From: Actinomycetota bacterium
GTDB lineage: Bacteria > Actinomycetota > Acidimicrobiia > Actinomarinales > Actinomarinaceae
Length of the DNA: 18,637 nt
Direction of reading: 5' to 3'
Assembly: GCA_002724835.1 (NCBI GenBank)
Contig: PBPX01000028.1
Span: forward strand, 10,533 to 29,169
Each line of letters opens with the position of its first letter. Within the stretch, counting starts at the first letter, position 1. This document shows positions 5,231 to 15,933 of the stretch, piece by piece. Under the pieces are notes generated by a model. The model was given only the letters and a program-made list of their open reading frames with translations. It was not told where the DNA came from and did no database searches. The translations under genes were made by a program, and so were the position numbers.

Positions 5231-7219
5231 ATGGGGAAATCCGATAAAGTATCTTACGGGAAAATTCTTTTCTTTGCTTGTTTATCTTTAATTGTTTCTG
5301 CATGTGGTTCTGGAGATGCTTCTGGGCCTGAAGCACAAATTGTAAGGGTTGTTGATGATGAATTCTCTCCAAAAATACTAAGAGTTCCTGTAGGAAGTAC
5401 CGTTATTTGGGAATCTGGAGGAGCAAACGATCACAATGTAATCGCAAGTGATGGTTCCTGGCAAGCTGTTTCTTCTGATTATTTTGAATATGGAATAATA
5501 ACAAAAGGCGATCAGTTTGAACATACTTTTAATGAAGCTGGTGTTTATGAATATTATTGCCCTTTTCATGGAACAAATAACAAGGGTATGGTTGGAATCA
5601 TAATTGTTGGAGATGTAGATTATGTTCCACCTCCTGAAGAGGTAAACACTGCTTTGAGCACAGATGTTTTAGAAGTAGGAAAAAGTTTACAGTATGAAAC
5701 TATACAAAGTGCAGTAGATGCAGCTAAAGCTGGAGATTTAATTTTGATTAATTCAGGAGTGTATAACGAAAGTGTCACAATAACTACCCCTTATTTAACA
5801 ATTAGAGGAAAAGATAGAAATGGTGTAATCATAGATGGAGAGTTCATGAGAGAAAATGGAATCCAAATTTATGACACTGATGGAGTAAGTGTTGAGAATC
5901 TCTCAGTAAGGAACTTTTCATTAAATGCAGTTTATTGGAATGGCAGTAAAGGCTACAAAGCTTCTCATGTAACTGTATATAACAACGGTGACTATGGTGT
6001 TTATGCATTCGACTCAACAGATGGAGTTTTTGAAAAAATATACGCTTCGGGTCATCCAGATAGTGGGATTTATATTGGGCAGTGCTATCCCTGCAATGCA
6101 TTAATTTATGACAGTGTAGTTGAGGGAAATGCACTTGGATATTCTGGTACAAATGCTGGAGGTCATTTGTATATATATAACAACATATGGAGAGACAATA
6201 TGTCTGGGATTATACCTAATACTCTTGATTCAGAACTAAATCCACCAGGAAGAGAAACAACTATTGTGGGAAATTTAGTTGTAGACAACAATAACTATGA
6301 GGCTCCCGCAAATCGTTTTGGATTGGTCGCTCAAGGAATGGGTATTGTTATGCCTGGGAGAGTTGGAGATGTTGTTGAAAAAAATATAGTTATTAATCAC
6401 GATAAATATGGGCTAGTAGCAAGTCCAATGTTAGATGTAAACCTATATTTTTCGCAGCATGTAAGGGTGAAAAATAATGTAATTATGGACTCAGGTTATA
6501 CAGACTTAGCTTTAGCTGGACCATGGGGTCCTGGTAATTGTTATGAAGGTAATATTTATCAAACATCCACTCCTCCATTACTTGAGCAATTACATGATTG
6601 TGAATCAGTAGGGAATGGTTCTCTCTTGTCAAGATTCCCACTTCAAGGAGATGTTTCAGGTTTGATGATGCTTGCAGGTCTTTTCGCAGATGCGGCAAGC
6701 CAAGAAGCTCCTAAAGCTAGATATAAAGACTATCCCTGGCCAGAACCACAAGAGAATATGACATTTGCAGACATAAATAAACCATCACCAGCAATAAATT
6801 TATTTTACGTACCGGATATGAATTCATTAGATCTTCCGTTTCATCTATTGGGTGGAGATAGTATTGAAGATTTAATAGGAGCAGAAAAGGAGATAATTAT
6901 GAGTGGAGTACCAATTACAAGCCCGAACGTTTGGCAATTGTTATTTCAACTTTACGGATATCTAATGCCTTTTGTTTTATATGCAGCTTGGGCTGCATTA
7001 GCAATCAAAGATATTGATTCGAATGAGAAAGTTAAGGGAAGTGGAAAGTATATGTGGCTAGCAATAGTTTATCTTGTGCCATTTTTTGGTGTTTTAATAT
7101 ACCACCTTGCAGGACCTAGCGCAATATCAAGAAGTACAAAGGTTGCAGCAATAGGTGGAGGTCTAATTAGCTATATAGTAATACTTGTAGCTGGTGCCGT
7201 AATTAGTGGTTTAGTTTAA
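5231..7219 (+). CDS. Lipoprotein: cupredoxin + parallel beta-helix + PLDc_N-like membrane tail
   Basis: A 662-residue multidomain envelope protein. Residues 1-25 form a lipoprotein signal peptide ending in the lipobox IVSAC (Cys25). Residues about 36-128 are a plastocyanin-like cupredoxin with type-1 copper ligands His68, Cys110, His113 and Met120 (CPFHG followed by GM). Residues about 150-455 are a right-handed parallel beta-helix of NosD/pectate-lyase type, starting with the common cap motif YETIQSAVDAA and running through repeated G-I/V-x-I and N-x-I/V turns; it contains Cys285-x2-Cys288. Residues about 572-662 hold three hydrophobic segments. The first two, around AAWAALAIKDID and VYLVPFFGVLIYHLAG, match the PLDc_N two-helix domain. 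The body should lie outside the membrane, held by lipid at one end and helices at the other. Carbohydrate binding or copper handling are both possible; no function is assigned. Confidence 0.88.
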   Translation: MGKSDKVSYGKILFFACLSLIVSACGSGDASGPEAQIVRVVDDEFSPKILRVPVGSTVIWESGGANDHNVIASDGSWQAVSSDYFEYGIITKGDQFEHTFNEAGVYEYYCPFHGTNNKGMVGIIIVGDVDYVPPPEEVNTALSTDVLEVGKSLQYETIQSAVDAAKAGDLILINSGVYNESVTITTPYLTIRGKDRNGVIIDGEFMRENGIQIYDTDGVSVENLSVRNFSLNAVYWNGSKGYKASHVTVYNNGDYGVYAFDSTDGVFEKIYASGHPDSGIYIGQCYPCNALIYDSVVEGNALGYSGTNAGGHLYIYNNIWRDNMSGIIPNTLDSELNPPGRETTIVGNLVVDNNNYEAPANRFGLVAQGMGIVMPGRVGDVVEKNIVINHDKYGLVASPMLDVNLYFSQHVRVKNNVIMDSGYTDLALAGPWGPGNCYEGNIYQTSTPPLLEQLHDCESVGNGSLLSRFPLQGDVSGLMMLAGLFADAASQEAPKARYKDYPWPEPQENMTFADINKPSPAINLFYVPDMNSLDLPFHLLGGDSIEDLIGAEKEIIMSGVPITSPNVWQLLFQLYGYLMPFVLYAAWAALAIKDIDSNEKVKGSGKYMWLAIVYLVPFFGVLIYHLAGPSAISRSTKVAAIGGGLISYIVILVAGAVISGLV

Positions 7220-14065: not shown

Positions 14066-15091
14066 TTAAATAATATTTATCTTTTCATTATATTTAGTAT
14101 TTATTTCGCCTATTTCCCAAATATCAATTCCGTAAGTTTCTTTAACTTCTTTAGGATTAATTGCTGAATTACCAGGAAGAGAAATCAATAATCCCCCGCT
14201 TGTTTGAGCATCGCAAAATAGTTTAATTTTGTCATCTTCAATTTTGTAAATTAGCTTATCTTTTACAGAAGCAAAGTTTCTTTGACTACCTGAGGGATAT
14301 ATGTCTTTTCTAAGAAGCTCTTCTACTCCGTTGATTACAGGGATCTTATCCGAGTTTATTTCTGCCGATAGCTTTGTATCTCTTATCATTTCTGATAAGT
14401 GACCAAGCAAGCCAAAACCTGTTATATCTGTTAGGGCGTTTGCATTATGATCTTTTGCAAACCTAAGTGCCTCTTTGTTTAGTCCAACCATAGTATTTGT
14501 AGCTTCTAAAATCTCTTCCTCTGATGCAATATCTTTTTTAATTGCTGTTGCTATGATTCCTATGCCTAGTGGTTTTGTTATATAGAGGGTATCTTTATCC
14601 GAGATGCTGTTGTTAAGCAAAGGATTGTCTTTAATAATCCCTGTTACAGAAAAGCCATACTTTGGTTCTTTATCGTCAATACTATGACCACCAATTACTG
14701 TACAGCCTGCCTCACCCATTATGTCTAAACCTCCATTTATTACTTCGGCTAAAATATCAAAACCTATCTCTTCTCTTGGCCAACAAACTAATTGAAGTGC
14801 AGATATAGGCTCTCCTCCCATTGCATAAATGTCTGATAAAGCATTGGCTGCTGCAACTCTTCCCCAGTCATAAGGATTATCAAGAATCGGTGTAAAAAAA
14901 TCTACCGTTTGTATTATTTTTGTTTCCCCAACATTAATGACTCCTCCATCATCAGGGTTCTCTAAACCAACAATTAAATTTTCAGATTTAAGAGCTTTAT
15001 GTTGTTCAAATTGCTTCAAAACTTGAGCAAGCTCGCTTGGTGCGAGTTTACAAGCTCAACCAGAGCCGTGAGAATATTGTGTTAATCTCAT
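14066..15091 (-). CDS. selD: Selenide, water dikinase; probable selenoprotein (in-frame UGA = Sec12)
   Basis: SelD makes selenophosphate from selenide and ATP, the selenium donor for selenocysteine and selenouridine in tRNA. The frame runs 341 codons from ATG 15089-15091 through an in-frame TGA at 15056-15058 (codon 12). The N-terminus reads LTQYSHGSG-U-ACK, matching E. coli SelD LTQYSHGAG-C-GCK, so the UGA falls on the catalytic Cys17 position. Cys14 and Lys15 match E. coli Cys19 and Lys20. Beyond it are DDGGV, TVDFFTPILDNPYDWGRVAA, LSDIYAMGG, GGHSIDD, LTDITGFGLLGHL and DAQTSGGLL. A start at TTG 15019 would delete the active site and gives only 317 residues. ATG 15091 has a strong Shine-Dalgarno. 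The gene follows the PLP-enzyme stop by 8 bp and precedes the hydrolase by 3 bp. A sequencing error changing Cys TGT/TGC to TGA is possible but disfavoured by the adjacent stem-loop. Confidence 0.95.
15024..15058 (-). promoter_or_regulatory. Candidate bacterial SECIS element in selD
   Basis: The mRNA stem-loop begins at the UGA itself. Lower arms UGAGC (15058-15054) and GCUCA (15028-15024) pair over 5 bp. An internal loop of seven against three bases follows, then upper arms CUCGC (15046-15042) and GCGAG (15036-15032) around a five-base loop ACCAA. The apical loop begins 15 bases after the UGA, about the bSECIS distance. The loop lacks the conserved G unless the upper C-G and G-C pairs open (loop GCACCAAGC). 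An alternative pairing GCUUG with CAAGC also exists. Confidence 0.7.
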
Positions 15092-15094
15092 TGC

Positions 15095-15102
15095 ACCTCC
15101 TA
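15095..15102 (-). promoter_or_regulatory. Strong ribosome binding site deciding the selD start
   Basis: TAGGAGGT on the minus strand, four bases (with GGAGG as core) before ATG 15091. It is the best Shine-Dalgarno seen in the window. It includes the TAG stop of the upstream PLP-enzyme gene. It supports translation from upstream of the in-frame UGA rather than from TTG 15019, which has no such site. Confidence 0.85.
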
Positions 15103-15933
15103 ATTTGAAAGCTTTCTACTCTTTTCTCTTTCTACTTGTTCTTTAAAATAGTTTCTAATTACAGGCAATAATTTATCTTCTGAATATTCTTTATTGTCTA
15201 TTTTGTTAACAAATCTTGCGTGTTTCGCAGTGGAGAGAACAAAAACAGAATCGACTTCATATAAGTCTTCAATAGAAATTCTTTCAATTGAAACATCGAT
15301 ATCGTAATTATCTCCAATTTCAATAAGAGAGCGACGAGTTACTGAGTCTAAAATTCCTAGGTCTAAATCAGGAATAAAAACTTTTCCAGCTTTTATCCAT
15401 GCAACAGAAAACGAAGGACCCTCGAGAACAATATTGTCTTTATTAAGAAGTAAGGAATCGGTAAATCCTTCTTTTTCTGCAAGTCTTGTATGGCTCATAT
15501 TCATTGCATATGATGTAGATTTTGCTGCTATGTTACTTACTTCGTCGATTTGAAAATCACCACCTGACATCCAGTGAGCTTTGTGTGACTGTAAGGAGTA
15601 GTAGTCGGGAACAGGAATCAGATCTTGATAAAACATATAAACTTTTGATTCTTCTTTTGAAGCTCCTCTCCCAATTATGACTCTCATATAACCGGAGTCA
15701 TAATTAGAAGCTACTCTTACTAAGTCTTTTTCAATTTTATCAAAATCAATATTGTCAAAATGCATTTTTTGAGCAGATTTCTTGAACCTTTCAATATGTT
15801 CTTCAAGGGCAAATAAAAAGCCCTGATGGATTGCTATGGCTTCAAAAATACCGTCACCTCTCCATATAACTAAATCTTCAACTGGTATTTGAAACTCTTC
15901 TTTAGTAACTTCCTTACCGTTAATTAAATACAA
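15100..15933 (-). CDS. Class-IV PLP-dependent aminotransferase/lyase
   Basis: A 277-residue fold-type IV PLP enzyme, the family of branched-chain aminotransferase, D-amino-acid aminotransferase and 4-amino-4-deoxychorismate lyase. Seen are the N-terminal INGK strand, WRGDGIFEA, the arginine-bearing MRVIIGRG, and the Schiff-base Lys138 in AAKSTSYAMN. After it come GFTDSLLLN, LEGPSFSVAW (the EG-phosphate-cup region), LGILDSVTR and STAKHARFV. Length fits ADC lyase or DAAT better than BCAT (about 300-360). Specificity cannot be set from the motifs. The start must be TTG 15931-15933, since the frame closes upstream at TAA 15949-15951 with no other start. It lies one base after the nadE stop, with a weak AGG upstream, so coupling to nadE is likely. 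Confidence 0.9.
   Translation of the reverse strand: MYLINGKEVTKEEFQIPVEDLVIWRGDGIFEAIAIHQGFLFALEEHIERFKKSAQKMHFDNIDFDKIEKDLVRVASNYDSGYMRVIIGRGASKEESKVYMFYQDLIPVPDYYSLQSHKAHWMSGGDFQIDEVSNIAAKSTSYAMNMSHTRLAEKEGFTDSLLLNKDNIVLEGPSFSVAWIKAGKVFIPDLDLGILDSVTRRSLIEIGDNYDIDVSIERISIEDLYEVDSVFVLSTAKHARFVNKIDNKEYSEDKLLPVIRNYFKEQVEREKSRKLSN

Follow-up and report, generated by a model that had tools for sequence, protein, structure and literature searches.

The selD gene of Candidatus Actinomarina very probably encodes a selenocysteine-containing selenophosphate synthetase, in which the UGA at codon 12 would be read as selenocysteine (Sec) by way of a small hairpin at positions 15011-15030. On the sequence side, this reading rests on the frame, the machinery, the conservation of the codon and the covariation of the hairpin; decoding and catalysis are inferred from established biology. 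The preliminary description of this DNA had proposed that SelD is itself a selenoprotein with Sec at its catalytic position, and the conserved TGA, the alignment with Cys17 and the Sec machinery in the genome support this prediction.

The window, i.e., the whole stretch of 18,637 nucleotides that was analysed, belongs to Candidatus Actinomarina (Actinomycetota) and has a GC content of 0.337, in agreement with the low-GC actinobacterial host proposed earlier. It occupies positions 10533-29169 of contig C10 in a draft genome of 1.14 Mb and 68 contigs (80% complete, 4.09% contamination). The closest SelD records are AG-333-G23 (91%; titled OCS155 cluster bacterium) and two Candidatus Actinomarina records (87% and 82%). 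In a SelD tree of 81 rows, with SH-aLRT support only, the window SelD belongs to a starred group of 39 rows, of which 34 are Actinomarina, 4 other Actinomycetota and 1 other by record title. A near-identical SelD also occurs in a record titled Euryarchaeota archaeon isolate ARS96, whose contig is probably misbinned. Elsewhere in the window, positions 5231-7219 encode a protein that combines a cupredoxin domain with a right-handed beta helix and probably has a C-terminal membrane part. An Rfam scan of the window returned sub-threshold matches only.

The selD frame and the conservation of its UGA codon

The selD gene (selenide, water dikinase) lies on the minus strand at 14066-15091. Its frame runs from an ATG at 15089-15091 to a stop at 14066 and comprises 341 residues, with a single TGA at codon 12 (15056-15058) as the predicted Sec codon. 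The Shine-Dalgarno sequence AGGAGGT (15095-15101) stands just upstream of the ATG, so that both the 24-codon upstream extension to a well-supported start and the one interrupting TGA were correctly described before. A start codon is kept at this position in all 40 unique coding sequences of the genus (17 ATG, 13 GTG and 10 TTG). The first uninterrupted start is a TTG at 15019, which yields a product of 317 residues, 24 codons shorter; automatic annotation is expected to start selD there and to lose the active site. An aminotransferase class IV gene (15100-15933) ends eight bases before the selD ATG, and because only these eight bases separate them, the two genes are probably co-transcribed.

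The extended 341-residue product scores 377.3 bits against NCBIfam TIGR00476 (selD; cut-off 125) and 349.7 bits against NF002098 (cut-off 299). It aligns with the chain of 3u0o at an E-value of 2.2e-81, with residue 12, the TGA, falling on chain residue 17. We take 3u0o to be E. coli SelD and residue 17 to be its essential, catalytic Cys17, so that the GSG-U-ACK site of the Actinomarina protein would likewise be catalytic. The corresponding flanks in 3u0o read GAG-C-GCK, and the Lys after the Cys/Sec position is kept. Membership in the SelD family is thus indicated by a passed profile cut-off together with the Cys/Sec position and its following Lys, and the earlier placement of the TGA exactly on this position holds.

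Conservation of the codon was followed across the family, in 42 genomes that all belong to one genus. SelD is matched in 40 of them, and every one of the 40 genus rows spanning residue 12 contains exactly one TGA, far beyond what chance would give; TGT or TGC, the outcome that would have spoken for Cys, is found in none of these 40 matches. The same codon is present in 67/67 genus selD rows, corresponding to 40/40 unique full coding sequences, in all of which the remainder of the frame is intact. Two genus rows are without TGA, one being a 126-residue C-terminal duplicate in the own genome, the other the second part of a gene that is split. The former is an identical second copy on another contig (G000:C66:4847-5224), probably an assembly duplicate. 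The latter belongs to a SelD divided over two frames that overlap, one with residues 1-186 and one with 174-341 (G033:C30, L090), and reflects a frameshift or assembly error. Among 100 selD loci read on the plus strand, 99 carry TGA and one carries TGT (L107, titled Nocardioidaceae), and ten further loci all carry TGA; there is overlap within these 110 loci, as genus genomes are present in both sources, and the similarity-selected ones are the best 80 of 194 ranked by likeness to the window SelD.

These counts bear directly on the alternative that the TGA stems from a sequencing error, a binning error or a decaying pseudogene, the true gene either having Cys or being dead. The draft state of the genome, with its 68 contigs and 4.09% contamination, and the second 126-residue piece of SelD on another contig would be compatible with such an origin. 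Against it stand the same TGA in all 40 genus matches covering the codon, the otherwise intact frame in every unique coding sequence and the many TGA records that, judging from isolate names, look like single-cell genomes. As far as the present data go, this alternative is refuted, and we assign it next to no probability.

Across the class, SelD is matched in 189 of 247 genomes. Outside the genus, the matches listed include 65 SelD rows with one TGA (from 64 genomes) and 44 with none, as counted by eye, showing that UGA-type and Cys-type SelD are both common in the class. The features that mark a selenoprotein gene are therefore found together in selD: an in-frame UGA at a Cys position, its conservation in relatives, Cys-type homologues and the presence of SelA, SelB and tRNA-Sec.

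Two hairpins at and downstream of the UGA

The preliminary description had assigned the bacterial SECIS (bSECIS) to a two-part hairpin beginning at the UGA. Such a structure (UGAGC/GCUCA and CUCGC/GCGAG; minus strand, 15024-15058) is indeed present, and at -13.4 kcal/mol it is the minimum-energy fold of the 60 nt in the own species, and no other single-sequence fold of the region is better. Within Actinomarina, 87.6% of the hairpin cells are paired; in an ungapped alignment of 66 unique stretches of UGA plus 54 nt (25 Actinomarina, 41 others) the paired fraction is 72.6%, above all 500 shuffles (mean 69.6%). These figures favor a role as SECIS, alone or jointly with the downstream hairpin. On the other hand, 28 of 200 shuffled sequences give a fold that is as good or better (z -1.01), and covariation does not rise above the shuffled level. 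The covariation score is 0.063 against 0.063 in shuffles for the 66 sequences and 0.055 against 0.050 for Actinomarina; double-change cells number 14 against 14.5 and 3 against 2.4, respectively. In addition, the upper stem is only 60% paired in the 66 sequences, and a loop without G at a spacing of 14 nt lies outside the model in the bSECIS passages of PMC13188914. The hairpin thus exists in the sequence, while its significance is not supported, and we consider it improbable that it acts as SECIS in either way.

The covariance signal is located further 3'. Run unprompted on the 66 sequences, RNAalifold returned a single helix, columns 33-36 with 40-43, closing a three-base loop that is mostly GUN. 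The covariance folding proposed before did reveal a covarying helix 3' of the UGA, though not in the stem-loop adjoining it. In the window this helix is the core of a hairpin on the minus strand at 15011-15030, UUGCUCAA-GUU-UUGAAGCAA with one bulged nucleotide, located 28-47 nt 3' of the UGA. Positions 15023-15026 pair with 15016-15019 around the loop at 15020-15022, which is 33 nt from the UGA. Among the 66 sequences, 97.3% of the helix cells are paired, compared with 80.2% in shuffles, and 54 cells carry double changes, compared with 16.4, a number reached in 0/500 shuffles. The covariation score is 0.540 as opposed to 0.175 in shuffles, and it falls to 0.016-0.194 for slid versions of the helix. 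For this helix, neither the number of pairs showing double changes nor the number of pair types is above shuffles. In Actinomarina alone, the helix extends across one bulge to eight pairs, 96% of them paired, and its 13 double-change cells compare with 3.9 in shuffles.

The same passages of PMC13188914 give a bSECIS stem of 4-16 bp at 16-37 nt from the UGA and an energy of -7.5 kcal/mol or lower. In its geometry, the hairpin at 15011-15030 agrees with this model and consensus: a three-nucleotide loop starting with GU (here GUU), a 4-bp core followed by a bulge and another 4 bp, and the 33-nt distance all lie within the ranges. In its energy it is weaker than the model demands, at -4.5 kcal/mol (z -0.51) for the isolated hairpin of the own species. 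The assignment of the SECIS to 15011-15030 is based on covariation and not on energy. In a folding test with synonymous recoding, only 12 of the 25 unique sequences reached a level of 0.05 or lower, a mixed outcome. Synonymous variability is slightly lower in selD codons 13-24 than in the gene as a whole (0.32 vs a mean of 0.42); windows starting at codons 20, 21 and 24-27 are among the lowest, as are others at the gene's 3' end. We predict from these alignments that the bSECIS element is the hairpin at 15011-15030, mostly outside the interval given for it previously.

The class offers a further view on this prediction, since it contains selD genes of both types. From genera of the class other than Actinomarina, we compared 20 of the 44 stop-free rows, those listed first and all with Cys at the codon-12 position, with 20 hand-picked rows of the 65 with UGA; two of the latter stretches also belong to the 66-sequence set. 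All four core pairs form in 20/20 UGA-type genes and in 0/20 Cys-type genes. Shuffles within the UGA set give a mean of 14.8 and a maximum of 20, and within the Cys set a mean of 0.4 and a maximum of 2; it is the contrast between the sets that carries the result, as the within-set shuffles tell little. Kinship partly confounds this contrast, even though both types occur in one family, f10. Because GU also occupies the loop position in 15 of the 20 Cys-type genes, which tend to have a Val codon there, the loop alone is not discriminating, but the stem is. The peptide at the hairpin is QVL in UGA-type genes and differs in Cys-type genes (RTV, EII, SVV, etc.). The class hence represents a natural experiment, with UGA-type selD read with the hairpin and its imposed QVL and Cys-type selD read with neither. 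Within f10, genus g44 (e.g. L188-L190) has a Cys-type SelD and the other genera the UGA type; the g44 protein, with neither hairpin nor QVL peptide, is a candidate for a Sec-to-Cys change.

Selenocysteine machinery and further UGA-containing genes

Expectations that the host encodes selA, selB and selC are matched by the own draft genome, in which selA adjoins selB on one contig and a tRNA-Sec gene is present. SelA (C16) scores 365 bits against an NCBIfam cut-off of 267.9, and in the genus selA is above cut-off in 33 of 41 genomes that are 60-94% complete. SelB, a protein of 561 residues with a GTPase domain and a C-terminal SelB-wing_3, stays below its NCBIfam cut-off (202 vs 242.25 bits), and another GTPase (C13) ranks slightly above it in the profile search with 205.1 bits over its N-terminal part only. 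The identification of SelB follows from its near full length, the SelB-wing_3 domain and its position beside selA. The tRNA-Sec on C20 has the anticodon TCA, scores 77.7 bits, where the gathering score is 47, and is called SeC by ARAGORN. This model's cut-off is also exceeded by an own-genome gene called tRNA-Ser by ARAGORN (49.4 bits) and in 5/14 control genomes. As this model is leaky, the score margin and the ARAGORN call decide the identity of the tRNA-Sec.

With these components, a ribosome would reach the UGA at codon 12 of selD, where SelB carrying Sec-tRNA-Sec would bind the small hairpin at 15011-15030, leading to insertion of Sec and no stop. Sec12, in place of the E. coli Cys17, would then take part in the conversion of selenide and ATP to selenophosphate, which SelA would in turn use on tRNA-Sec. 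In the draft genomes of the genus, one SelD is detected per genome apart from fragments, and it is of the UGA type. SelD should therefore depend on its own product.

Further genes of the genus also carry an in-frame UGA. The Rdx/SelW-like family is matched in 36 of 41 genus genomes, and all 36 rows contain one TGA. In the own genome, this gene lies on the minus strand about 29 kb from selD (G000:C10:54664-54879; L148, 239-486), with an internal UGA at a CxxU motif and a UGA stop. The terminal stop is likewise TGA in all 26 rows read, which comprise 19 unique stretches; one and the same gene therefore uses UGA in both senses. The SelW-like hairpin, with AGUUA or AGUUG as its loop, is 100% paired and contains 10 double-change cells compared with 2.8 in shuffles.

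This dual use of UGA weighs on another explanation, a general reassignment of UGA in the lineage or readthrough without selenocysteine, from which an open frame through the TGA alone cannot separate Sec. TGA ends 2 of the 18 window ORFs as well as the 26 SelW-like genes with an internal UGA, which argues against reassignment. Further evidence against this explanation, which we judge to be exceedingly unlikely, is the Sec machinery in the genome, together with the Cys that occupies the codon-12 site in E. coli SelD and in the 20 stop-free homologues read from the class.

The CMD/AhpD-like family is matched in 32/41 genus genomes, again with one TGA in all 32 rows. The own-genome copy (reverse strand of G000:C63; L139, 1375-1953) has a CEYU motif and, 3' of the UGA, a hairpin with a GGUC loop. 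All 26 rows read keep CGGTCGGAGAC after the UGA, including constant CGG and TCG codons, which in the window account for 3/182 Arg and 23/446 Ser codons. A Trx-like protein with a WADYUGxC motif and an in-frame UGA was found in six Actinomarina genomes (G005, G009, G024, G028, G039 and G041; L234-L239), with none at threshold in the own genome. By eye, an AGUUG loop 3' of the UGA in its gene is enclosed by a stem with changes on either side; the N-terminus of the protein resembles a lipoprotein signal. The other UGA families of the genus have hairpins of their own, in which the loop contains GU. Given the SelW-like, AhpD-like and Trx-like genes, SelD is not the sole support of the Sec trait. 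Annotation is expected to truncate these genes as well, which would hide selenium use in this ocean lineage.

Among further families, AhpC-TSA is matched in 41/41 genus genomes, with no internal TGA among the matches listed, and thioredoxin (PF00085) has no stop within strong rows. SelU (TIGR03167) gave weak matches in 9/41 genomes, none above a cut-off that was passed in 1/14 controls, and the UGSC profile has no match in the own genome and none in the controls either.

Relation to known selenoproteins

In the passages of PMC9402790 on GOS marine selenoproteins, the most prominent families are SelW-like (11.3%), AhpD-like (9.5%) and SelD (9.1%), with UGSC, Prx and proline reductase coming next. 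The SelW-like, AhpD-like, SelD and Trx-like families, with their CxxU and UxxC motifs, belong to the leading GOS families in passages of PMC2398784 and PMC9402790 and are shared with Actinomarina. The likeness consists of families and motifs: these passages name no host genus, and 'actinobacteri' occurs 0 times in either text. In Actinomarina, no UGA-type AhpC-TSA is among the matches listed. A literature search with most subscription journals outside its reach found nothing that joins 'Actinomarina' with 'selenocysteine', or 'Marine Actinobacteria', 'selenoprotein' and 'streamlin'. In the text of PMC12008989, which deals with the sister order UBA5794, 'selenocysteine' occurs 0 times, two other papers mention Actinomarina and selenium once or twice each, and 'Acidimicrobiia' and 'selenocysteine' co-occur in one sponge-microbiome paper; passages on the topic are also found in PMC4561486, PMC5029168, PMC12013277 and PMC1088965.

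We tentatively suggest, as a possibility we hold at somewhat less than even, that Candidatus Actinomarina, a marine genus with genomes of ~1 Mb, keeps Sec decoding as a core trait in spite of this small size, depends on a Sec-SelD that requires itself and is among the main unnamed hosts of the SelW-like, AhpD-like, SelD and Trx-like selenoproteins dominant in surface-ocean metagenomes. The link between Actinomarina and the GOS selenoproteins is a hypothesis, and the ownership of the commonest marine selenoproteins becomes testable through it. As to SelD, the known Sec-containing proteins (SelD/SPS2) likewise have Sec in the N-terminal Se-binding loop of a single SelD domain, and the host lineage is the only difference known between them and the Actinomarina protein. 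Sec-SelD is already well known, and the Actinomarina case adds a member across one genus rather than a new system.
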